A stretch of 64,000 bases of DNA, taken from positions 186,001 through 250,000 of the forward strand of contig NZ_CTDZ01000009.1 in assembly GCF_001375555.1 (NCBI RefSeq), given 5' to 3'. Position numbers and translations under genes: made by a program. Of the stretch, positions 1 through 50,335 are shown piece by piece (within the stretch, counting starts at the first letter, position 1; each line of letters opens with the position of its first letter). Below the pieces are notes generated by a model. The model saw only the letters and a list, made by a program, of their open reading frames with translations. It was not told the origin of the DNA and did no database searches. The stretch is from Numidum massiliense. GTDB lineage: Bacteria > Bacillota > Bacilli > Thermoactinomycetales > Novibacillaceae.

Positions 1-192
1 AAATTCGTCAAGCTCATCGTCGACTACGTCATCAAGAACGGGATCATGGACAAACGGGTGCTGCAAGAAGAGCCATTCCGCACCGTCGGCAGCATTGTCG
101 ACTTGTTCCAAGACAATATGGACGCCGCAAAGGAGCTTATCGGGATTATTGAGGGGATTAACCGCAACTGTGAGGTGGTGACGGGGGCGTAG
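1..192 (+). CDS. C-terminal end of a probable type I restriction R subunit (partial)
   Basis: The window opens inside a reading frame that runs 63 codons to a TAG stop. The encoded tail (KFVKLIVDYVIKNG, then PFRTVGSIVDLF, then GIIEGIN) resembles the helical C-terminus of HsdR-type type I restriction subunits, which often read 'V-x-Y-V-x-x-N-G-x-(L/M)' followed by 'PF' and 'LF'. HsdR would translocate DNA by ATP hydrolysis and cleave unmodified DNA in a complex with HsdM and HsdS. The catalytic and helicase domains lie outside the window, so the assignment rests on a short tail and is tentative. No hsdM or hsdS follows; the downstream DNA is decayed accessory sequence. Confidence 0.4.
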   Translation, partial: KFVKLIVDYVIKNGIMDKRVLQEEPFRTVGSIVDLFQDNMDAAKELIGIIEGINRNCEVVTGA

Positions 193-301
193 CTGTTTCG
201 TCGTGAGAAGGGCGTGTTGGGAAGTACCGATTAGTGGAGGCATCTAGGGGTAACTGCTAGTGAAGGCACTGTATGAGTAAGAAATCTTGTAAACGGGACT
301 G

Positions 302-338
302 CCGCTAGAAGGGGAGTTGTCGGCTGCCCTTCTAGCGG
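302..338 (+). terminator. Perfect 12-bp inverted repeat after the HsdR-like gene
   Basis: CCGCTAGAAGGG at 302-313 pairs with CCCTTCTAGCGG at 327-338 around a 13-nt loop. It lies 110 nt after the stop of the partial gene. There is no T-tract, so it may be a weak terminator or another structured element. The rest of 193-531 shows no supportable gene. Confidence 0.4.
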
Positions 339-531
339 GTCATTGGTCGTTGATCGCTCGGCTACTTATTATCCTGTTTGACATGGGATGAATGTTTTGT
401 TGCTGGAGGTGTCATGTCATCGGCGAATGGAGTTACTTGCGTGCCATGCCCTGGGGGTGTCCTATCGCCAGCAAACACAGTTATGGGCATAACTAAGAGG
501 GCGATTACAACGACCGACGAAATTAACCTTT

Positions 532-828
532 TCACAACATTCCCTCCCTGCGAATTAACGCTTCTACCTGATACATATGTTCGGCTTCCTTATGAAATGC
601 TTCTTTGTTGCCTGCTCGTTCGTAGTAGTTCGCTAAAACGAAGTGAAAGTCCTTCATTTTATTGAACAACTTACTTTTTTCCGCTAGTTGCAATCCCTCT
701 TCGCACAACGACAACACTTCAGGAGAATTTTGCTCCAAAGCAATCTCCTGTTTTCTTCAACATTTGTCCTAACAGTTCGTCCGTCAAACCGAGTTGTTCC
801 CGGATGTAGGCGACCTTACTATAACGAC
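532..828 (-). pseudogene. C-terminal TPR fragment of an RNPP-type regulator, frameshifted
   Basis: On the minus strand a reading frame beginning near 828 encodes YSKVAYIREQLGLTDELLGQML. It is broken at an A-run (aag-aaa-a-cag) and continues in the next frame as QEIALEQNSPEVLSLCEEGL through HFVLANYYERAGNKEAFHKE to a stop at 532. This is typical of the C-terminal tetratricopeptide helices of NprR/PlcR-family (RNPP) regulators, which bind secreted signalling peptides. The helix-turn-helix part is absent here. Removing a single A restores one continuous frame, so this is a recent frameshift in an already truncated gene. Confidence 0.55.
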
Positions 829-938
829 ACACAAAAAAAAGACTAGAAAATTTTTCTATCAGCAGCAGGAATTAGCGATTTAATGTCGAATGCTCCTAGT
901 AACAATATTTTCTGTCAATCGAATGGGGGTCATTGAAT

Positions 939-1091
939 ATGGAGCTCGATCCAATCACGTTAGGTTCACTGATCCGCAAACGTCGCAAAGACATGGGGTT
1001 CACTCTGAACGACCTGGCCAACGACAACGTCTCCGTCCCGACGATCAGCAACATCGAGCGCGGCATCACGGGCAATCTCGCCAGTGAGTAA
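939..1091 (+). pseudogene. N-terminal HTH fragment of an RNPP-type regulator
   Basis: The reading frame encodes 50 residues beginning MELDPITLGSLIRKRRKDMG and continuing NDLANDNVSVPTISNIERG, a textbook XRE-type helix-turn-helix of the NprR/PlcR kind. It stops at TAA just after ITGNLASE. Full-length relatives continue for about 350 more residues of TPR repeats, so this is a truncated relic. It faces away from the C-terminal fragment at 532-828, which is on the other strand. Either one gene was split by an inversion or two copies decayed. A 50-aa DNA-binding stub could in principle still be expressed. Confidence 0.55.
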
Positions 1092-1119
1092 GAAAATCTT
1101 AACGCCCTGGGAATAGAGG

Positions 1120-1357
1120 GCTTATGGGGCACTAGGGTATGCATTTGCATTAATTCGTGCAACGCTTGTGACCAAATATATTTGGCTTAAAAACGAAGAT
1201 AAGCTAGCCAACGATCAAAAGAAAACACTCGAGCGATTGAAAGGTGGTAAGGCGAGAGCAGGAGTAAAGTGACTTTCTTGACGGCTGCTTTCGCCTATGA
1301 GAACCTTTTAAGCGCAAAAAGAACCCATGGTTTACCCATGAGAAAGAGCGAAGAGCC
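1120..1357 (+). mobile_element. Right-end relic of an ISL3-family insertion sequence
   Basis: Codons 1120-1272 read ALIRATLVTKYIWLKNED then NDQKKTLERLK, resembling the conserved ISL3-family transposase stretch T-x-Y-x-W-L-K-N-P-E-x-L-x-x-x-Q. About 85 nt later the sequence ends in a block whose reverse complement starts GGCTCTTCGC and continues into CATGGGTAAACCATGGGTTC, like the terminal repeats of ISL3 elements, which begin GGCTCTTC. The left end and most of the transposase are missing, so the element is immobile. Confidence 0.55.
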
Positions 1358-1504
1358 TCTAACTTTTACCTCACGCCGCATATACTCCCCAATATTTTCT
1401 TAAGCACCGGACAGTCATTAACCAGCTATTACGAGCTTAAATGCTCCCCTATCTAATGACCATCGATTGTAATCCAACATAATAACAAAATTAGAAAAAT
1501 CCAA

Positions 1505-1533
1505 TTGCAAAGAGGCGAAAAATAGGCTATAAT
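1505..1533 (+). promoter_or_regulatory. Sigma-A promoter of the LXG toxin operon
   Basis: TTGCAA at 1505-1510 and TATAAT at 1528-1533 are separated by 17 bp, 111 bp upstream of the first small gene. The block from about 1503 to 1560 is repeated almost base for base at 50002-50058, next to a scar of this locus. That supports this being the conserved promoter segment of the operon. Confidence 0.65.
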
Positions 1534-1643
1534 CTCAGTAATTAATGTAAGTGTTTTCTTATGGGGCAGAGCATAGAGTATAGAGCATCTAGCGGAACTT
1601 ATTCAATTGTCATTAATAGTCGCTGCAGAAAGAGGGGGTAAAG

Positions 1644-1943
1644 ATGACAGAAATTACGTCGAATCTAAGGACCTTGCAACACTTTACAATGAAAATGGAA
1701 GTCGGTAATCGCTCGATGGCTCATGACGCCGAGAGTGAACCATTAGCGCCGTCGCCAAATACAAACGTCACCGCTAACGCGCGTATGATCGAGGCGTACA
1801 GTGATTATGTCACGCTTGCCGGCGATTTTTACTCGTGCATGGCGGCAGACATTAACCGTTTAAAGTCAATCGGGGACTCTTTTACGGAAGAAGACCAGCG
1901 GGCGAGCCAGTCTTTTCAGCGCCATCCGTTGTCGGTGGAATAA
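1644..1943 (+). CDS. Small LXG-associated helical protein (DUF3130/TIGR04197-like)
   Basis: This 99-aa protein starts at ATG 1644 behind AGAGGGGG. The C-terminal half (NARMIEAYSDYVTLAGDF then DINRLKSIGDSFTEEDQRAS) fits the small WXG100-like proteins encoded upstream of LXG effectors, known as TIGR04197, DUF3130 or Lap1-type. In studied systems these bind the LXG helical domain and form part of the export signal for the type VIIb secretion system. Position supports this: it is the first gene of a four-gene operon ending in toxin and immunity genes. Residues 1-40 look disordered. The family assignment is from pattern recognition only. Confidence 0.6.
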   Translation: MTEITSNLRTLQHFTMKMEVGNRSMAHDAESEPLAPSPNTNVTANARMIEAYSDYVTLAGDFYSCMAADINRLKSIGDSFTEEDQRASQSFQRHPLSVE

Positions 1944-2103
1944 ATCTGTCGGTCGCACAGCGTAAACCTGTTCGTCGTGTAAAACCATCTGCAGAACAAC
2001 CGCGTTCGTGGGAAAACGAGTGATCGTTTTGTGGTGTCGTTATAAGGTGGGGAGTGCAAAAGTATGTTGCACCCGAGATCTAGTGAGAAGGAGGACAAAT
2101 GCG

Positions 2104-2475
2104 ATGGAAGAAGAGGAGCGACTCAAACAAATGGCGATCCTTTCGGGGAGGATCGCCGAAGCCGAGGAAGATTTGCGAAAGAACGCAAGGAAAATTGAAC
2201 AGAATGAACAGACGATAGGCGAAGTTGAACAGTCTATGCAGCAGGGGAAGTGGCTCTTGGAAGCGATGCAAACAGGATGGTCCGGCGAGCGGGCGCATCA
2301 GTTCTACAATCAATCGTCAGCCGGACTGTTCGAAGCCAAACGGCACATAGAACACGCTCTGTACGAAGAACAGGAAGCGCTGCAAACGCAAAGGAAGCAG
2401 TTAAGGGTGAAACAAGACCAGTTGCAACGCACATACGCGCAACTGAAAACGAGGGGGCATGAGTCGTGGGATTAA
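2104..2475 (+). CDS. LXG-associated coiled-coil partner (DUF3958/YwqH-like)
   Basis: This 123-aa, strongly charged protein is almost entirely heptad-like helix, for example EEDLRKNARKIEQNEQTIGE, and carries a central W-SGERAHQF turn resembling the W-x-G hairpin of WXG100 proteins. Start ATG 2104 has AAGGAGG 11 nt upstream; the longer frame from 2008 lacks a comparable site. The stop overlaps the toxin start by 10 nt, implying coupled translation. Known families in this position (DUF3958, or DUF5082 as in YwqH) act as LXG-domain chaperone or targeting partners. It is likely co-folded with the N-terminal domain of the next protein. Confidence 0.6.
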   Translation: MEEEERLKQMAILSGRIAEAEEDLRKNARKIEQNEQTIGEVEQSMQQGKWLLEAMQTGWSGERAHQFYNQSSAGLFEAKRHIEHALYEEQEALQTQRKQLRVKQDQLQRTYAQLKTRGHESWD

Positions 2476-4067
2476 AAATACATATGCCTGAAGTGCATCA
2501 ACAGATCCAAACGATCAATGGCGTGTTATCGATGAAAAATACATTTGCTCATAACATCCTAGCTGCGTTGGAGTCATTCGTCGAGGATACAGAGTTAAAA
2601 GGCAGCGCCTATCAGTCAGCAAAAGATTATTTTAACGCGACGTATGTTGCCTTAACAAAAGGGATGATTCGAGTACACGAAGAAATGATCGCCGGCAATG
2701 AGCGCTTCATCCAGCAGTTTACGAGCGAGGTAGACTCCTCGCCAAGTGCCATCATCGACGAAGACCAATTAAGACGACAAATTGACGAGCTAAATAATTG
2801 GAAGAGAAAATTAATGGATAAATTGAACGGTAACTTTGAGAATCTCATCAACGATAAGCTTAACATTGAACAGTTGGCACAAACGATTGCCGCTCTGCGC
2901 CAATTTAACTGCAGTAGCGCAGATATATACGACTCAGCAAAATTTTTAATGGAACAGATTCAAGCGGGTTTAAGGGCGGTCAATTATTACAGCACTTGGG
3001 ATGCGAAAACGAATCGTTATACCCATCAGCTAAAGGACCTATCGTGGAGCCGTATATTGCAGAAGGACTGGGATTTCTCTCGGAAAACAGAACGAGAACG
3101 ATTTATTGACCAGATGAAGGAACAATACGGTTTTTCCGACGACGAAATAGAGATTATGGAGAAACTACGGAAGAAATTAAAGAAAAGATACCCGAAGCTC
3201 TCGTCAAAACAGCTTGACTGGTATTTCTCGCGACTGTTGGGAGGGTTTGTTTATGGCGATTCCGAAGGAGAAAGCATTTGGAAAGACTTAGGGAATAAAA
3301 TTGCTTGGGAGTCGACGGCAGGAAACCCATATGTCGATGTAGAATACCTCACACTGGATGGGCAACTTGTTCGCTTAACGGAAGAATTCTACTTTACTAA
3401 GGTATTAGGTATATCGGAAGAAGAGTATAGATTGTTGAGGTACAAGGTACGGATTCAGAACTTCATAGTCGGCAGACCAAACGTTTTTAGTTGGGAGGTG
3501 ATAGTTGATGACGGTTACTCATATTTATATAAAAGTAAATTTGAGGAAGCGACGGGTCGCAAGTTAAGTATGGAAGAGTTCAAGAAAAAATGGGAAGAGC
3601 AGTATGATGCAATGAAACATTGCGGTGATTTTGCTCACCAAATGATCATCGTTGCGACATTAACATATGAAAATCCCCTACCTTCCTTGGCAGATATTGT
3701 TACCTTGGGGGAAACCGATGATAATGCGGGTTGGTTAGGCGATGCCACTAATGATAAAGATGGCCCACTTAGCATGGGGCCGGACGATTACAAAGCGGAT
3801 TTAGACGCGGTGAACATTCACCACTTGATGGAGACTAAGGAAATATCTTACATCAAGGCCAGTAATCAATATTACCGTGACCTCGATGCGAAATATACGC
3901 GGGCTGAAATGTTCCGGAAGATCAAGAGCTTGAAAGAAGTTAAAAAGGCTATTTTGGCAAAGTTGAAGGTTGATACGATGGAAGAGGTTCGTAAAATAGC
4001 ACCCGACACGTATAACTTTTACCGGAGCTTGGAGGACGGGAACAATGAAATGGGTGATTACCGATGA
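2466..4067 (+). CDS. LXG-domain polymorphic toxin, TelC-like C-terminus (type VIIb effector)
   Basis: This 533-aa protein starts at GTG 2466 behind GAGGGGG. Residues 1-200 form an LXG-type helical domain (FVEDTELKGSAYQSAKDYFN then ALTKGMI). A charged middle region follows, and the C-terminal domain spans roughly residues 375-533. That domain carries an aspartate-rich signature: CGDFAHQ at 386, DNAGWLGDAT at 419, and DDYKADLDAVNI from 440. The length and Asp-rich domain, paired with a TipC-like neighbour, resemble TelC, a type VIIb toxin that attacks lipid II outside the membrane. I infer that relationship from memory; polymorphic toxin type 44 is an alternative. The stop overlaps the immunity start (ATGA). 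Confidence 0.65.
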   Translation: MGLKIHMPEVHQQIQTINGVLSMKNTFAHNILAALESFVEDTELKGSAYQSAKDYFNATYVALTKGMIRVHEEMIAGNERFIQQFTSEVDSSPSAIIDEDQLRRQIDELNNWKRKLMDKLNGNFENLINDKLNIEQLAQTIAALRQFNCSSADIYDSAKFLMEQIQAGLRAVNYYSTWDAKTNRYTHQLKDLSWSRILQKDWDFSRKTERERFIDQMKEQYGFSDDEIEIMEKLRKKLKKRYPKLSSKQLDWYFSRLLGGFVYGDSEGESIWKDLGNKIAWESTAGNPYVDVEYLTLDGQLVRLTEEFYFTKVLGISEEEYRLLRYKVRIQNFIVGRPNVFSWEVIVDDGYSYLYKSKFEEATGRKLSMEEFKKKWEEQYDAMKHCGDFAHQMIIVATLTYENPLPSLADIVTLGETDDNAGWLGDATNDKDGPLSMGPDDYKADLDAVNIHHLMETKEISYIKASNQYYRDLDAKYTRAEMFRKIKSLKEVKKAILAKLKVDTMEEVRKIAPDTYNFYRSLEDGNNEMGDYR

Positions 4068-4672
4068 GCATGCGGTGGAAGATTGCACTTATCTTGCTTG
4101 TATTGTTGGCTGCACTGTATCTTTATAAGACGAGTCAAATCAAGAACGCATTTGATGAGATGTATTACGATAAAGTGCCGTCGTTTTTTGGCGGTTATAG
4201 TCCAGCCAGTTTTAAAGGGACGAGAATATTGGGACCTTTAAGCGACGGCGTACGTTTCATGGCGGAGGATAGTATTTATGAAAGCGTCAATAGTGATTAT
4301 TTAAAGTCAAATGAAGTATATAATCTTTATTTCTACAAAGATGAAGCAAGAATAGTTCTCAGTTTTAATAAATTTATTGCAGCAAAGACGAATGTGAGGG
4401 TTAAGTATGAATATGGTGTAAATGAACGTAAAATAAGTGAATATCCGATTATAGTTATTACTGAGGGCTCTAATGGAAGAAGCAAAGTCATTCGCGGTCA
4501 TACAGATGTTACAGAGTTCCTTAAGAAGCGAGGCATCACCGAGCGTACAATAGAGGAATATCGGCATTACATGCTGTACGATACGCTGTTAGCCAATTGG
4601 TTTAAGGAAAACAAAGGCAAATCGAAATTTGACCTTAACAATATAGGGGAGTTAACAATTGTTAAGGAATGA
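4064..4672 (+). CDS. Membrane-anchored candidate immunity protein, copy 1 (TipC-like)
   Basis: This 202-aa protein has one N-terminal transmembrane segment (residues 6-21, ALILLVLLAALYLY), then KNAFDEMYYDKVPSFFGGYSP and a presumably extracytoplasmic domain. A single anchor with an outward-facing domain suits a protein that neutralises a toxin acting on the outer face of the membrane, as TipC does for TelC. It starts by a 4-nt ATGA overlap with the toxin stop, so the two are translationally coupled. Two paralogues follow. Residues 1-56 and about 150-202 are nearly identical among the three, whereas the centre differs. Confidence 0.6.
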   Translation: MSMRWKIALILLVLLAALYLYKTSQIKNAFDEMYYDKVPSFFGGYSPASFKGTRILGPLSDGVRFMAEDSIYESVNSDYLKSNEVYNLYFYKDEARIVLSFNKFIAAKTNVRVKYEYGVNERKISEYPIIVITEGSNGRSKVIRGHTDVTEFLKKRGITERTIEEYRHYMLYDTLLANWFKENKGKSKFDLNNIGELTIVKE

Positions 4673-4823
4673 TTTTGACTCTCTTATAAGGCTACGATTT
4701 ATGTGATCCGGAACGACGGCATGGTTGACCAGTCCAGTAGACCATGAACAATCACCTTCATAATTCCAAGCGATTCAAATCACAGCTACATTCCAATTTG
4801 TGCTAGGTAGGGGAAAATGGCAG
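4673..4823 (+). repeat. Conserved linker between immunity copy 1 and toxin fragment 2
   Basis: This 150-nt non-coding stretch begins after the immunity stop with ATTTTGACTCTCTTATAAGG. It has a diverged counterpart between copies 2 and 3 (about 5900-6005) and another at 50094-50215 beside the distant scar. Its conservation marks it as part of the duplicated unit rather than random spacer. No clear promoter or terminator is visible in it. Confidence 0.6.
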
Positions 4824-5294
4824 GAGCAGTATGACTCAATGAAAGATTGCGGTGATTTTGCTCACCAAATGATCATCGTTGCGACATTAACACATGAAAA
4901 TCCTCTGCCTTCTTTGGCAGATATTGTTACCCTAGGAGAAACAGATGACAACGCTGGTTGGTTAGGCGATGCCACTAATGATAAAGATGGCCCACTCAGC
5001 ATGGGGCCGGACGATTACAAAGCGGATTTAGACGCGGTGAACATTCACCACTTGATGGAAACGAAGGAAATATCTTACATTGAGGCCAGTAATCAATATT
5101 ATCGTGACCTCGATGTGAAGTATACGCGGGCTGAAATGTTTCGGAAGATCAAAAGCTTGGAAGAAGTTAAGAAGGCTATTTTGACAAAATTGAAGGTTGA
5201 TACGATGGAAGAGGTCCGTAAAATAGCACCCGACACGTATAACTTTTACCGGAGCTTGGAGGACGGAAACAATGAAATGGGTGATTACCGATGA
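4800..5294 (+). pseudogene. Orphan toxin C-terminal module, copy 2 (no LXG domain)
   Basis: An open frame of 164 codons repeats the last 157 residues of the full toxin, from EQYDSMKDCGDFAHQ to GDYR, at about 95% identity. It lacks the LXG export domain and the middle region. The presumed catalytic motifs (CGDFAHQ, DNAGWLGDAT, DDYKADLDAVNI) are intact, but without LXG it should not be exported. GTG 4800 has no good ribosome binding site, so its own expression is doubtful. Its stop still overlaps the following immunity start by ATGA. It could be a silent cassette able to recombine with the full toxin. Confidence 0.6.
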
Positions 5295-5899
5295 GCATGC
5301 GGTGGAAGGTTGCACTTATCTTGCTTGTATTGGTGGCTGCGCTATATCTTTATAAGACGAGTCAAATCAAGAACGCGTTTGATGAGATGTATTACGATAA
5401 AGTGCCGTCGTTTTTTGGCGGTTATAGTCCAGCGAGTTTTAAAGGGACGAGAATATTGGAACCCTTGGATAATATGGCTAGATATATAGCAGAAGACCAT
5501 ATTTCTGAAGGGTACAATAGTAGTTACTTGAAGGAAAACGAAGTATACAATATATATTTTTATCGTGGGACAAAAAAAATAGTCCTTAGCTTAAATAAGT
5601 TAATTGATGAGAGAACAAATTTAAGGGTAAAGTGCGAATATAATGTAAAGAACCGAGAGATGAGCCAACTTCCCGTTACAGTTATTACAGAAAATTCGAA
5701 TGGTGAAAGCATAGTTATTGAAGGTCACACTCGTGTTATAGACTTTCTTAAAAAGCATGGCATCACCGAGCGTACAATAGAAGAATATCGGCATTACATG
5801 CTGTACGATACGCTGTTAGCCAATTGGTTTAAGGAAAACAAAGGCAAATCGAAATTTGACCTTAACAATATAGGGGAGCTAACAATTGTTAAGGATTGA
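5291..5899 (+). CDS. Membrane-anchored candidate immunity protein, copy 2
   Basis: This 202-aa paralogue of the protein at 4064-4672 has the same transmembrane anchor and the same tail (RTIEEYRHYMLYDTLLANWF and onward). The centre, residues 57-150, is clearly different, for example ILEPLDNMARYIAEDH against ILGPLSDGVRFMAEDS. It is intact and coupled by ATGA to the truncated toxin module in front. In polymorphic toxin loci, extra immunity genes protect against toxin variants of other strains. The conserved ends with a variable centre fit specificity residing in the centre. Confidence 0.6.
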   Translation: MSMRWKVALILLVLVAALYLYKTSQIKNAFDEMYYDKVPSFFGGYSPASFKGTRILEPLDNMARYIAEDHISEGYNSSYLKENEVYNIYFYRGTKKIVLSLNKLIDERTNLRVKCEYNVKNREMSQLPVTVITENSNGESIVIEGHTRVIDFLKKHGITERTIEEYRHYMLYDTLLANWFKENKGKSKFDLNNIGELTIVKD

Positions 5900-5935
5900 T
5901 TATTAAGGCGATAGCAATTTATGTGATCTGAAACG

Positions 5936-6376
5936 ATGGTTCCATTCAAGCGTTTTAGATTGCAGCTATATCCTAAATTGTGCCAAGTTATAGGAAAACG
6001 GAAAGAGCAGTATGACGCAATGAAAGATTGCGGTGATTTTGCTCACCAAATGATCATCGTTGCGACATTAACATATGAAAATCCCCTACCTTCCTTGGCA
6101 GATATTGTTACCTTGGGGGAAACCGATGATAATGCGGGTTGGTTAGGCGATGCCACTAATGATGAGGCCAGTAATCAATATTACCGTGACCTCGATGCGA
6201 AATATACGCGGGCTAAGATGTTTCGGAAGATCAAAAGCTTGGAAGAAGTTAAGAAGGCTATTTTGACAAAGTTGAAGGTTGATACGATGGAAGAAGTCCG
6301 TAAAATAGCACCCGACACGTATAACTTTTACCGGAGCTTAAAGGATGGGAAAAATGAAATGGGTGATTACCGATGA
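5936..6376 (+). pseudogene. Orphan toxin module, copy 3, with 99-nt in-frame deletion
   Basis: This 146-codon frame aligns with the toxin C-terminus from KEQYDAMKDCGDFAHQ, but jumps from GDATND straight to EASNQYYRDLD. Exactly 33 codons are missing relative to copy 2, including the Asp-rich DDYKADLDAVNI motif. The encoded domain is therefore almost certainly inactive. The first 22 codons are read-through of linker DNA. The deletion is in frame and no stop has accumulated, and the ATGA overlap with the next gene is kept. This fits a role as a translational leader for immunity copy 3, or a recent event. Confidence 0.65.
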
Positions 6377-6981
6377 AAATGCGGTGGAAGATTGCACTTA
6401 TCTTGGTTGTATTGGTGGCTGCGCTGTATCTTTATAAGACGAGTCAAATCAAGAACGCGTTTGATGAGATGTATTACGATAAAGTGCCGTCGCTTTTTGG
6501 CGGTTATAGTCCAGCGAGTTTTAAAGGGACGAGAATATTGGAAGCTATAGATGACATCGCTCGTTATATGTCAAAAGACTTTATTTCTGAGTTTTATAAT
6601 AGTGGTTATCTGAGGGATGACGAAGATTTATATCTGTATTTTTATAGAAACAAGGAGGTATTACTGCTCAGTTTTAATAAAATGATCGATAGCAAAACTA
6701 GTATTCAAGTTAATTATGAGTATGTTGTAAATAGGAAAGAACTTAAGCAACTTCTGATCAAGATTTACACTGAAAATCCTAATGGAGACGATATTATCAT
6801 AGAAAGGCCGTATGAAGTTACAAAATTCCTTAAGAAACACGGCATCACAAAGCGTACAATAGAGGAATATCGGCATTATATGTTGTATGAGACGCTTCTG
6901 GCCAATTGGTTTAAGGAAAACAAAGGCAAATCGAAATTTGATCTTAACAATATAGGGGAGTTAACAATTGTAAAGCAGTGA
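6373..6981 (+). CDS. Membrane-anchored candidate immunity protein, copy 3
   Basis: This third 202-aa paralogue begins MKMRWKIALILVVLVAALYL and ends in the shared tail, with the most divergent centre of the three (DLYLYFYRNKEVLLLSFNKM and LLIKIYTENPNGDDIIIERP). It is intact although its partner toxin module has lost the presumed active site. Retention of an intact immunity gene behind a dead toxin module is what selection for protection against non-self toxin would produce. The operon appears to end here; about 300 nt of AT-rich DNA follows. Confidence 0.6.
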   Translation: MKMRWKIALILVVLVAALYLYKTSQIKNAFDEMYYDKVPSLFGGYSPASFKGTRILEAIDDIARYMSKDFISEFYNSGYLRDDEDLYLYFYRNKEVLLLSFNKMIDSKTSIQVNYEYVVNRKELKQLLIKIYTENPNGDDIIIERPYEVTKFLKKHGITKRTIEEYRHYMLYETLLANWFKENKGKSKFDLNNIGELTIVKQ

Positions 6982-7281
6982 TTGTTAATAGAATAATAAA
7001 TGTTAATATATTAATAGCGTTATTAGGGTTTATAATATCCAATATCTGACAATAATCCGCTAATTCCTGTCTCTGTTGATAAAAATAATTCCTGTTTCTA
7101 TGGAAAAAAATTAAGTATTTTTTCGATTTATCAAAGAAGGTGTCTACCTACATGAAAACGCATGCTTGACAGCAAGTTCACATACAATCAAGTGTATACA
7201 TTCGATCCAATTTAGCGAACCAGTCGAGCGATGAAGCCATGGAAAAAAAGAAGAAATCTAAAAAGAATGGAGGAATGCTGG
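6982..7281. other. AT-rich intergenic region after the toxin array
   Basis: No gene is visible in this 300-nt stretch. It holds an imperfect direct repeat of TAATTCCTGT (two copies about 30 nt apart, near 7050-7100) and a TTGACA at 7166. The nearest -10-like hexamers are 11 and 23 bp away, so a promoter for the DinB gene cannot be pinned down. Confidence 0.4.
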
Positions 7282-7785
7282 ATGCAACATCATTCCGTAC
7301 AAATGTATAACTATCACACGTGGGCCAACCAACAGGTGCTTGCCCACTTGCGTGAACTTCCCGAAGACATTTTTCGACGGGAGATTCCTAGCGTTTTTCC
7401 TTCGATTTCCGAAGTGCTCGTTCATATGTACGTCGCCGATAAAATGTGGGTAGAGGCGTTGCGCAAGAAGCTGCCCTTTGACGACGTAGCAAAGCTAAGT
7501 GAACAGTTGAAGGACGAAATGGCAACGAAAAACCTAGAGGAAATGGATGCGATGTTTGGCCAGTCTTCCGAGGAGTGCCGAACATTTTTCGCACAACATT
7601 GCGACTTGGAGAAGACTTTTACGCTAGAACACCCAAACTGGGAAAAAAAACAACTTCGCATTGCCGATGTGGTTGATCACCTCGTCAATCACGGGACGTA
7701 CCACCGGGGACATATTTCGGCGATGTTACGCCAAATGGGGCACAAAGGCGTGTCTACTGACTACGTGTTTTATTTGTTACGCTAA
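7282..7785 (+). CDS. DinB family protein
   Basis: This 167-aa protein starts at ATG 7282, set by GGAGG at 7269-7273; an upstream in-frame ATG at 7231 has no such site. DinB-like proteins are four-helix bundles with a three-histidine metal site. The expected histidines are visible in YNYHTWAN, VLVHMYVADKMW and HLVNHGTYHRGHI. Members include damage-inducible proteins and thiol-transferases such as bacillithiol S-transferases. The actual reaction cannot be told from sequence. It stands alone, with no operon partner. Confidence 0.85.
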   Translation: MQHHSVQMYNYHTWANQQVLAHLRELPEDIFRREIPSVFPSISEVLVHMYVADKMWVEALRKKLPFDDVAKLSEQLKDEMATKNLEEMDAMFGQSSEECRTFFAQHCDLEKTFTLEHPNWEKKQLRIADVVDHLVNHGTYHRGHISAMLRQMGHKGVSTDYVFYLLR

Positions 7786-8007
7786 TCGTCAAGAAAAACG
7801 TGTCTATACTTGAAAATGCATAAAACGCCGCCGTTTGATACGGTTTAACAAAATTGTATAGAATGCAACTATTTTTCTCAGAATGACCTTGAAATGAACA
7901 TCTTGAAGTGATAGACTAAAAATCATTAACATAAGGTGATTATTTGTACATGTTGTATAAATAACACCTTTTTTTATTCTACATTGTGGAGGCGATGTCA
8001 ACAATTT
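7786..8007. other. Leader region upstream of the amino-acid ABC operon
   Basis: No gene is seen in this 220-nt stretch. It contains AT-rich promoter-like sequence around 7840-7930, and no riboswitch signature is recognisable. Confidence 0.3.
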
Positions 8008-35625: not shown

Positions 35626-35907
35626 GACGGTTCCCCCCCCTGACACGTTTATGTATATGGTCGTTAAGCTTTTCGTACGGCGACCCGTGCTAAAATGATC
35701 GTAGCACACGTTTGGCAGAAAGGCGAGAGGCGTACAGTACTGCTGCTTCAGTAGTTAGGTGGATGGTCAAGGTAATGTATGCGGTATCTCGCATGGAAGG
35801 CGAGTCGTATTCAACGTGCAACGGTTTTAGACTTCGTGCGTAAATAGAGGTAGGAAGATTTCATTTTATAGCAACTAGCTAATTATTTCAGAACGGGAGT
35901 GAGCGCG

Positions 35908-36975
35908 ATGCAAGAGCAGAAAAGGATTCTTTTAGATGTCGACACTGGAATTGACGATGCGTTAGCTATTTTTTATTTGCTCCATTCTCCCAACGCCGTC
36001 GTAGAAGGTATAACGACCGGCTATGGCAATGTCTCGGTGCTGCAGGCGACGTACAACACGTTGCAAATAGTCGAATTGGCCGCTCGGCATCGCGAAATTC
36101 CGGTCGTCCCCGGGGCGGAGCGACCGCTGCTTAGGAATTGGGAAGGACCAGCTGCGCGCGTTCACGGTGAAAATGGTTTCGGAGACGTCGTTCTTCCTCC
36201 GCCAAAACGGACGGCATTAGCCGCACATGCGGCCGATTTTATTGTGGAGAAGGTGAATGCGGCCCCAGGAGAGATGACTCTCGTCTGCATCGGGCGCTTA
36301 ACGAATTTAGCACTCGCTTTGGCAAAAGATGCGCGATTGCCGCAGAAGGTAAAAGAAGTCGTTATTATGGGCGGAGCGGTTCGCGTCCCCGGTACAGTTA
36401 CGCCCGTGTCGGAAGCGAATATGCACGGGGATCCGGAAGCTGCACATCTTGTGTTTGAGTCCGGGTGTCCGATCACATTAGTGCCGTTGGATGTCGCACG
36501 TCTATTAGATGTGCCCCGGAAAGTCGTCTTCGACGAAGAACATTTCGCACAATTAGCTACGACAACTCAACAAGCAATCCCTTGTCTCGCGCAACTGCTG
36601 CGCTTTCGTCTGAAGGCGTACGACGACGGGCACGTAACGGCAGGTCCATTACACGACCCGCTAGCTGTTGCGGTCGCACTCGATCCGACGCTCGTACAAA
36701 AAGAGGAGATGTACGTAAAAATTGAAACGAAAGGGTGGCTCTCTTTAGGGGCGACGATTGTCGACTTGCGTCTGAAACAGTGCGAACGACATAACGCGTC
36801 CGTTTGCGTCGACGTAGATCGAGAGCGTTTTCTTGCTGAATTTTATGGGCGTTTATTTGATGGATCAAAAAGTGGTGGTGGATGTGATGTGCCAAAAGGT
36901 TACAATCCTTCCAGCAAGAAAAACGGCAATTTGCGAATGGATGACAAACTACCCGTGAAGGAGGAACAGCGATGA
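35908..36975 (+). CDS. Inosine-uridine preferring nucleoside hydrolase, copy A
   Basis: This 355-aa enzyme cleaves ribonucleosides to base and ribose. It has the calcium-site motif LLDVDTGIDDALAIFYLL at the N-terminus, the ribose-binding IGRLTNLALALAKDAR, the VIMGGAVRVPGTVTPVSEANMHGDPEAA block, and the late HDPLAVAVALDP motif. ATG 35908 is chosen over GTG 35899 because GGGAG lies 9 nt ahead of it. It carries a C-terminal extension of about 40 residues beyond its neighbour. Its stop overlaps the next start (ATGA), so the two paralogues are coupled. Confidence 0.9.
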   Translation: MQEQKRILLDVDTGIDDALAIFYLLHSPNAVVEGITTGYGNVSVLQATYNTLQIVELAARHREIPVVPGAERPLLRNWEGPAARVHGENGFGDVVLPPPKRTALAAHAADFIVEKVNAAPGEMTLVCIGRLTNLALALAKDARLPQKVKEVVIMGGAVRVPGTVTPVSEANMHGDPEAAHLVFESGCPITLVPLDVARLLDVPRKVVFDEEHFAQLATTTQQAIPCLAQLLRFRLKAYDDGHVTAGPLHDPLAVAVALDPTLVQKEEMYVKIETKGWLSLGATIVDLRLKQCERHNASVCVDVDRERFLAEFYGRLFDGSKSGGGCDVPKGYNPSSKKNGNLRMDDKLPVKEEQR

Positions 36976-37904
36976 AATCGCTCATAATTGATGTCGATAC
37001 GGGAATTGACGATGCGCTAGCACTTAGTTACGCGCTGCACTCACCGGAATTACGTGTACTAGGGGTGACAACGTCGTTCGGAAATATTTCGGTTGAGGAG
37101 GCGACGCGCAATACGCTATCGTTGCTCGAAATGAGCGGGCGACCGGAAATACCGGTGTTGCCAGGGGCGGGAAAGCCAATTTTTCGTGACGATTTAAAGG
37201 GGAAAGCGACGAACGTTCACGGCGACGACGGACTAGGCAACAGTCACTTACCGACGCCGAAAATTACGCACAAATACGAGTATGCAAGTGAATTTATCGT
37301 CAACCAAGTGACTCAGCTGCCTGGGCAGGTAACTGTCATTACTGTCGGTCCGTTGACTAATTTAGCCACGGCGCTCATGCGTGAACCGGCAATTGCACAC
37401 TCGATTGCGCGCGTCGTCGTAATGGGGGGCGCGGTTACCGTTCCCGGTAATGCGACTCCTATGGCAGAAGCGAATATTTACGCGGATCCAGAGGCGGCGG
37501 AATACGTGTTTCGCTCCGGCGCTCCGCTCACTCTCGTCGGCCTCGACGTGACGATGCAGACGTTGTTGAAACGCACCGAGTTACAGCGGTGGCGGGAGGA
37601 AGGAACCGCGTTCAGTCGTTTTCTCGCTAACATTACCGATTTTTACATGGATGCCTATAAAAATTTTTATCCCGGCATCGATGGGTGTGCCTTACACGAT
37701 CCGTTAGCTGTCGGGGTCGCTATCGACGAGTCGTTCGTAAAAACGACACCGATGTTCGTGCAAGTCGACACAGAAGGGGAGTTGTCGCTCGGCCGGACGA
37801 TCGCCGACCGTCGCCCGAACCGTGTGGTAACGCCGAATATGGACGTCTGCCTCGATGTGGATGCGGAACGGTTTGTCAGCCACTTTTTGTCTCGTGTCGT
37901 GTGA
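36972..37904 (+). CDS. Nucleoside hydrolase, copy B
   Basis: This 310-aa paralogue of the preceding enzyme starts at ATG 36972 behind GAAGGAGG. IIDVDTGIDDALALSYAL, VGPLTNLATALMREPA, VVMGGAVTVPGNATPMAEAN and HDPLAVGVAIDE give the complete metal and ribose sites. Two adjacent but diverged hydrolases suggest different nucleoside preferences, or a heteromeric enzyme. No nucleoside transporter is encoded nearby. Confidence 0.9.
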   Translation: MKSLIIDVDTGIDDALALSYALHSPELRVLGVTTSFGNISVEEATRNTLSLLEMSGRPEIPVLPGAGKPIFRDDLKGKATNVHGDDGLGNSHLPTPKITHKYEYASEFIVNQVTQLPGQVTVITVGPLTNLATALMREPAIAHSIARVVVMGGAVTVPGNATPMAEANIYADPEAAEYVFRSGAPLTLVGLDVTMQTLLKRTELQRWREEGTAFSRFLANITDFYMDAYKNFYPGIDGCALHDPLAVGVAIDESFVKTTPMFVQVDTEGELSLGRTIADRRPNRVVTPNMDVCLDVDAERFVSHFLSRVV

Positions 37905-50001: not shown

Positions 50002-50215
50002 ATTGCAAAAAAGACGAAAAATAGGCTATAATCCCGGTAATTAATGTAATTTTATCTTAGCAATACAGGGGAGCTAACAATTGTGAAGAAATGATTTTGA
50101 CTCTTATAAGGCTACGATTTATGTGATTAGAAACGACGGCATGGTTGATCAGTCCAATAGGCTTTGAACAATCACCTTCACAGTCATTCTAGCGCTTCAG
50201 ATACAGCTATATTCT
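50002..50215 (+). repeat. Scar of the LXG locus: promoter fused to immunity tail and linker
   Basis: Positions 50002-50058 repeat the LXG operon promoter block of 1503-1560, including TTGCAA and TATAAT. At about 50060 the match switches to the 3' end of the immunity gene (CAGGGGAGCTAACAATTGTG, compare 4644 and 5875). It then continues through the inter-unit linker (compare 4673-4790) to about 50215. Everything between promoter and immunity tail is missing. No gene is encoded. The remainder of 49900-50335 shows no other feature beyond a TATAAT at 50291 that may belong to the next gene's promoter. Confidence 0.8.
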
Positions 50216-50335
50216 AATACACTTAACTCGATCGTTAACTTCACGATGCATCTGCTTTTCGGAAAATAAACATTGTAGTCAACGATACGCTATAATAGCA
50301 TTACGATGATGATAGATTACAGCGGGGGATTTTGT

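Follow-up and report, generated by a model that had tools for sequence, protein, structure and literature searches.

An intergenic scar in the Numidum massiliense genome is probably the relic of a second TelC/TipC-type LXG operon copy

About 216 bases at positions 50002-50217 of the window (the whole 64,000-nucleotide stretch analyzed, bases 186001-250000 of a long contig in a genome of 3.76 Mb) are probably a dead remnant of a TelC/TipC-type LXG operon that was present in a second copy. This scar is intergenic and lies between two unrelated genes, which encode a VanY-like carboxypeptidase and a PrpR-type sigma-54 activator. Its homology is collinear with the LXG operon and, within the genome, specific to that operon; its junction is sharp, with only AA in common between the two sides; and relics of the operon are found elsewhere in the genome.

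The scar is collinear with the LXG operon

We compared the segment 50002-50215 with the window, with its own genome, and with 60 further genomes. The scar carries a promoter block, an immunity gene tail, and a linker in the same order as the operon, and the coding body is missing. Its features are as follows:

50002-50049, plus strand: copy of the LXG operon promoter block (TTGCAA at 50003-50008, 18-nt spacer, TATAAT at 50027-50032)
50048-50049, plus strand: junction, a dinucleotide AA common to both parents, where the promoter and tail homologies overlap by 2 nt
50048-50094, plus strand: TipC-like immunity gene tail, the last 14 codons and stop, with neither start nor body
50095-50217, plus strand: linker copy of the type following immunity gene 1

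The promoter block aligned to positions 1503-1550 with 43 matches, 4 mismatches, and 2 gap columns, and both the TTGCAA and TATAAT hexamers are unbroken in the scar and in the LXG operon promoter alike. The local alignment score of 69 compares with a maximum of 32 in 300 dinucleotide shuffles. The tail was identical to the 3'-terminal 47 bp of immunity gene 1 (4626-4672) at 40 of 47 positions, and the linker aligned to 4673-4795 with 105 matches, 14 mismatches, and 8 gap columns. Together, tail and linker (50048-50217 versus 4626-4795) scored 199, compared with a shuffle maximum of 34 (300 dinucleotide shuffles). An exact match to the 18-mer promoter core occurred at two sites in the 3.76-Mb genome, the scar and the LXG operon, and the third-ranking site carried 2 mismatches. 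Since the scores lie far above those of shuffles and the promoter core is found at two genomic sites, we ruled out a chance likeness or a dispersed intergenic repeat.

These results bear out the claim of an earlier, sequence-only reading that the promoter, immunity 3' end, and linker recur 43 kb from the intact locus, in sequence as well as in coordinates. That reading had described a 57-bp promoter block with TTGCAA and TATAAT; the hexamers are right, but the length is not, as the promoter homology covers about 48 bp and the 57-nt family corresponds to the immunity tail. It had also named a widely dispersed repeat with no link to LXG genes as the result that would speak against it. Instead, the genome had five matches to the segment: apart from the scar itself, three lay in the LXG locus and the fourth in an immunity gene relic. 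In G+C content, the scar (0.355) is like the LXG region (0.376 to 0.414) and unlike the genes flanking it (0.52 to 0.53).

The parent locus

The intact operon and its array comprise the following features:

1503-1550, plus strand: intact LXG operon promoter block
1644-1943, plus strand: small WXG-like partner (DUF3130 / TIGR04197)
2008-2475, plus strand: small partner (DUF3958)
2466-4067, plus strand: LXG toxin with a TelC-like C-terminal part (PF04740, E 1.1e-9; 5ukh, E 7.4e-20)
4064-4672, plus strand: TipC-like immunity gene 1 (NF033863, E 8.7e-23)
4673-4799, plus strand: linker 1, the parent type of the scar linker
4800-5899, plus strand: orphan cassette 1 (toxin C-terminal part, 4800-5294, and immunity gene 2, 5291-5899)
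5936-6981, plus strand: orphan cassette 2 (toxin C-terminal part with an internal deletion, 5936-6376, and immunity gene 3, 6373-6981)

In the TelC/TipC type, the toxin has lipid II phosphatase activity, which the immunity protein neutralizes; we class the parent locus as a T7SS LXG toxin-immunity operon of this type by sequence. The toxin has an LXG domain at its N terminus (PF04740, 38.9 bits; cutoff, 26.5), and its residues 185-500 matched the solved structure 5ukh (E 7.4e-20), an entry titled "Uncharacterized protein" that we take to be the structure of TelC. Immunity protein 1, whose gene adjoins the toxin gene, falls into the NCBIfam TipC family (NF033863, 81.5 bits; cutoff, 30), and the immunity protein alignment matched TipC2 (6dhx, E 1.7e-5). 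EssC of the T7SSb machinery is encoded in the genome (TIGR03928, 1752.9 bits; cutoff, 778.4), and a parent T7SS system is therefore plausible.

The immunity genes of the array have conserved ends and variable middles: pairwise likeness among the three was 93 to 97% over the first 174 bases, 51 to 68% over the next 261, 76 to 87% over the next 87, and 91 to 98% over the last 87. Directly upstream of the LXG operon, an XRE-TPR regulator gene lies in broken pieces (468-1088). Another LXG operon (L019:2513-7962) is accompanied by further partner and immunity genes that form an incomplete second set, possibly an array rearrangement like that of the window operon in unrelated DNA; none of the other LXG loci of the genome (L018, L019, and L020) matched window positions 1-8000 at the DNA level. 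Elsewhere in the window, two neighboring genes at 35899-37904 have a 56-nt stretch in common (77%), and the first encodes DVDTGIDDALA; judged by this motif, they are presumably tandem nucleoside-hydrolase-like paralogues.

Junction and flanks of the scar

The promoter homology ends in ...TAATGTAA and the tail homology starts with AATTT..., the common part being only AA. Illegitimate joining leaves such an overlap, and chance often gives one as well. With only AA common to both sides, recombination between long repeats was ruled out as the origin of the junction. Thus, the loss by recombination that the sequence-only reading proposed does not fit the promoter junction, the alignment of which shows a 2-bp microhomology. 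We propose that a full or nearly full second operon copy once stood at the scar site and was lost through a single illegitimate deletion at this short (2-bp) microhomology, not through homologous recombination. Such a deletion would have kept the promoter, the last 14 immunity codons, and the linker and removed everything between promoter and tail, and the sequence beyond the linker would have been either lost as well or never present at the site.

The whole operon between promoter and tail is indeed missing, as had been claimed: positions 1551-4625 of the intact locus have no counterpart in the scar, a stretch of 3,075 bp that is measured on the intact locus and not on the scar site, where the intermediate may have held the promoter and immunity gene only. 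The loss had been thought to reach the last linker of the array. However, the scar linker resembles the first (4673-4795), and the sequence after immunity gene 3 gave no match to it.

The same junction could have arisen if the site had held an orphan immunity gene under an LXG promoter, without a toxin, whose gene body was deleted later. Such genes are common at LXG loci according to the available parts of two accounts (PMC10327511; PMC9484751), and neither the toxin nor the genes of the small partners have left traces at the scar site. The scar cannot separate this course of events from the loss of a full operon, but it requires an extra, earlier step, and we regard it as unlikely.

The homology to the operon ends at the edges of the scar. 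No homology was detected between the left flank and the sequence upstream of the intact promoter (200 of 200 shuffles reached the observed score), between the right flank and the sequence following immunity gene 3 (105 of 200), or between the right flank and window positions 1-8000 (87 of 200). Because the homology stops at the flanks and the longest word common to both edges measures 5 bp, a target-site duplication is not in evidence, and direct repeats in the flanks did not exceed 5 bp. The joined promoter-tail-linker unit had no further copy elsewhere in its own genome. Transposition was accordingly rejected, and the scar does not look like a mobile or integrating module, as neither a target-site duplication nor repeated ends nor another copy of the joined unit is present; the suggestion that the ends mark an integration-prone module finds no support, for want of a flanking direct repeat above 5 bp and of further homology in the flanks.

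The junction might also have been made elsewhere, for example, in a collapsed array, and the finished short fragment copied to a site that never held an operon. Homology running from the -35 box to near the end of the linker, with flanks that contribute no more, would suit such a copy, and the remaining relics are likewise fragments in intergenic places. Still, neither a target-site duplication (5 bp being the longest common word) nor a third copy of the joined unit accompanies the scar, and we consider this origin very unlikely.

Further relics and descent of the scar

A genome search with immunity protein 1 returned, besides the three array genes, residues 84-202 at C9:2007243-2007599 (minus strand) and residues 1-41 at C9:2331759-2331881 (minus strand). 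The second match belongs to a relic of 1.4 kb (L017:3785-5203, C9 at about 2.33 Mb) that is 94% identical to window positions 2743-4161 and runs from mid-toxin to the 5' start of the immunity gene. The toxin frame of this relic is open to its stop, and the relic is flanked by genes for an AraC-type regulator and a PepSY protein. The other relic (L016:5223-5594, C9 at about 2.01 Mb) is an immunity 3' fragment. It abuts a broken TPR regulator gene in the opposite orientation, of the same XRE-TPR type as the one upstream of the LXG operon, which has relatives at this locus; genes for a type I restriction subunit and a DUF6119 protein are found in the vicinity. Counting the scar, three partial copies of the LXG operon are dispersed in the genome.

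Because the order is collinear and LXG specific and two further relics exist, we favor a second operon copy as the source of the scar, either deleted in place or moved to the site already deleted. The promoter-tail-linker order is hard to explain without one. The proposal that the locus was once duplicated, with later loss, is likely to be right. The content of the 1.4-kb relic falls entirely inside what the scar lacks. The scar differs from the intact operon by 25 mismatches in 213 aligned positions, and the 1.4-kb relic differs by about 6%; with such different divergences, we make no claim that the two are pieces of one copy.

In a further reading, the scar would be a landing pad, with the promoter and the tail plus linker as homology arms between which a whole LXG array can be regained by double crossover. 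If this were true, the intact locus 43 kb away or incoming DNA would supply the array, and the dispersed relics would be reusable docking sites to swap toxin-immunity sets. We judge this highly improbable.

The tail of the scar differs at 7 of 47 positions from each of the tails of immunity genes 1, 2, and 3 and of the immunity fragment at 2.01 Mb, and it is therefore a recent copy of none of these four. By comparison, the tail of immunity gene 1 differs from those of genes 2 and 3 at 2 and 4 positions, respectively. By this measure, the scar tail appears to be a separate lineage in which homogenization with the array has ended. The scar can serve as an outside reference for the array. Its linker is full-length, as is linker 1, and linker 2 (5900-5995), which separates immunity gene 2 from the cassette after it, lacks an internal stretch that both of them contain. 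Since the scar linker is full-length, the shorter linker 2 is read as derived, which suggests a later deletion after immunity gene 2.

Possible activity of the scar

The scar is taken as dead by default. The unchanged promoter core leaves room for a kept promoter. Compatible with the remnant reading, the promoter could have been co-opted to transcribe the downstream PrpR-type gene: both hexamers are intact, the orientation is right, and there is no terminator-like site between the promoter and that gene. In addition, none of the 24 core sites has changed, compared with 25 of 189 in the rest of the scar alignment. However, this conservation is not significant (Fisher P = 0.085, with the 24 sites picked post hoc; 0.37 for the hexamers alone), another promoter-like site (50267-50296) lies closer to the PrpR-type gene, and the predicted leader (50037-50215) has a fold no stronger than that of its shuffles (z = -0.16). 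Overall, we hold co-option to be distinctly unlikely. Given that fold score and the lack of any Rfam family at the gathering threshold in the window, a structured RNA was rejected.

Relatives and known systems

Among 61 genomes, which include one other member of the family and no other of the genus, the segment 50002-50215 matched its own genome only. That set yielded no relative in which the scar position was seen to be empty or occupied by a full operon. Searches for relatives of the immunity protein yielded 214 pattern stretches in genome contigs and 80 in viral contigs, none of them confirmed, and nothing in plasmids; the toxin C-terminal alignment gave 355 pattern stretches that reduced to one locus, with 31% identity, in a Lachnospiraceae metagenome-assembled genome. 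The TipC family occurred in 3 of 151 genomes, the present one and two from another family of the class. As for the neighbors of the scar, the VanY-like protein was found in 10 of 21 genomes, and the PrpR-type gene had matches in 40 of 41; among the matches listed for the latter, the best outside its own genome had 40% identity over residues 56-604, and the others mostly covered the shared ATPase part.

In the portions available of the published work, tipC genes are described with conserved blocks at their 5' and 3' ends, through which Garrett et al. inferred recombination (PMC9484751), and telC operons with multiple tipC paralogues were reported by Klein et al. (PMC6193138). As far as these portions go, the parent locus shares with streptococcal telC-tipC operons a TelC-like LXG toxin and tandem TipC family genes with variable middles between conserved 5' and 3' ends (PMC6193138, PMC9484751). 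Unlike in those operons as described there, a toxin C-terminal fragment stands before each of two of the three immunity genes here, and the operon has relics at three remote places in one genome. The tspA fragments in the tsaI cluster of Staphylococcus aureus, as excerpted, resemble the present case in placing partial second toxin copies beside immunity genes; those fragments are at the same locus, whereas the scar is 43 kb away and keeps a promoter and an immunity tail, not toxin (PMC9484751). The LXG hotspots of Listeria monocytogenes, in the part of the account at hand, are several chromosomal sites that are occupied or empty depending on the strain (PMC10327511), in contrast to the single genome considered here.

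Toxin fragments, orphan immunity genes, and hotspots have thus already been described for LXG-type loci, according to the available text of these sources (PMC9484751, PMC10327511), and decayed operon copies are ordinary for such loci. In the accessible parts of the literature on LXG remnants, on orphan immunity genes and recombination, and on orphan polymorphic toxins, we found no description of the scar. The general picture of T7SS arrays is unchanged by it. What the scar documents is loss, besides gain, in T7SS toxin-immunity arrays, beyond the well-studied staphylococci, streptococci, and Listeria.
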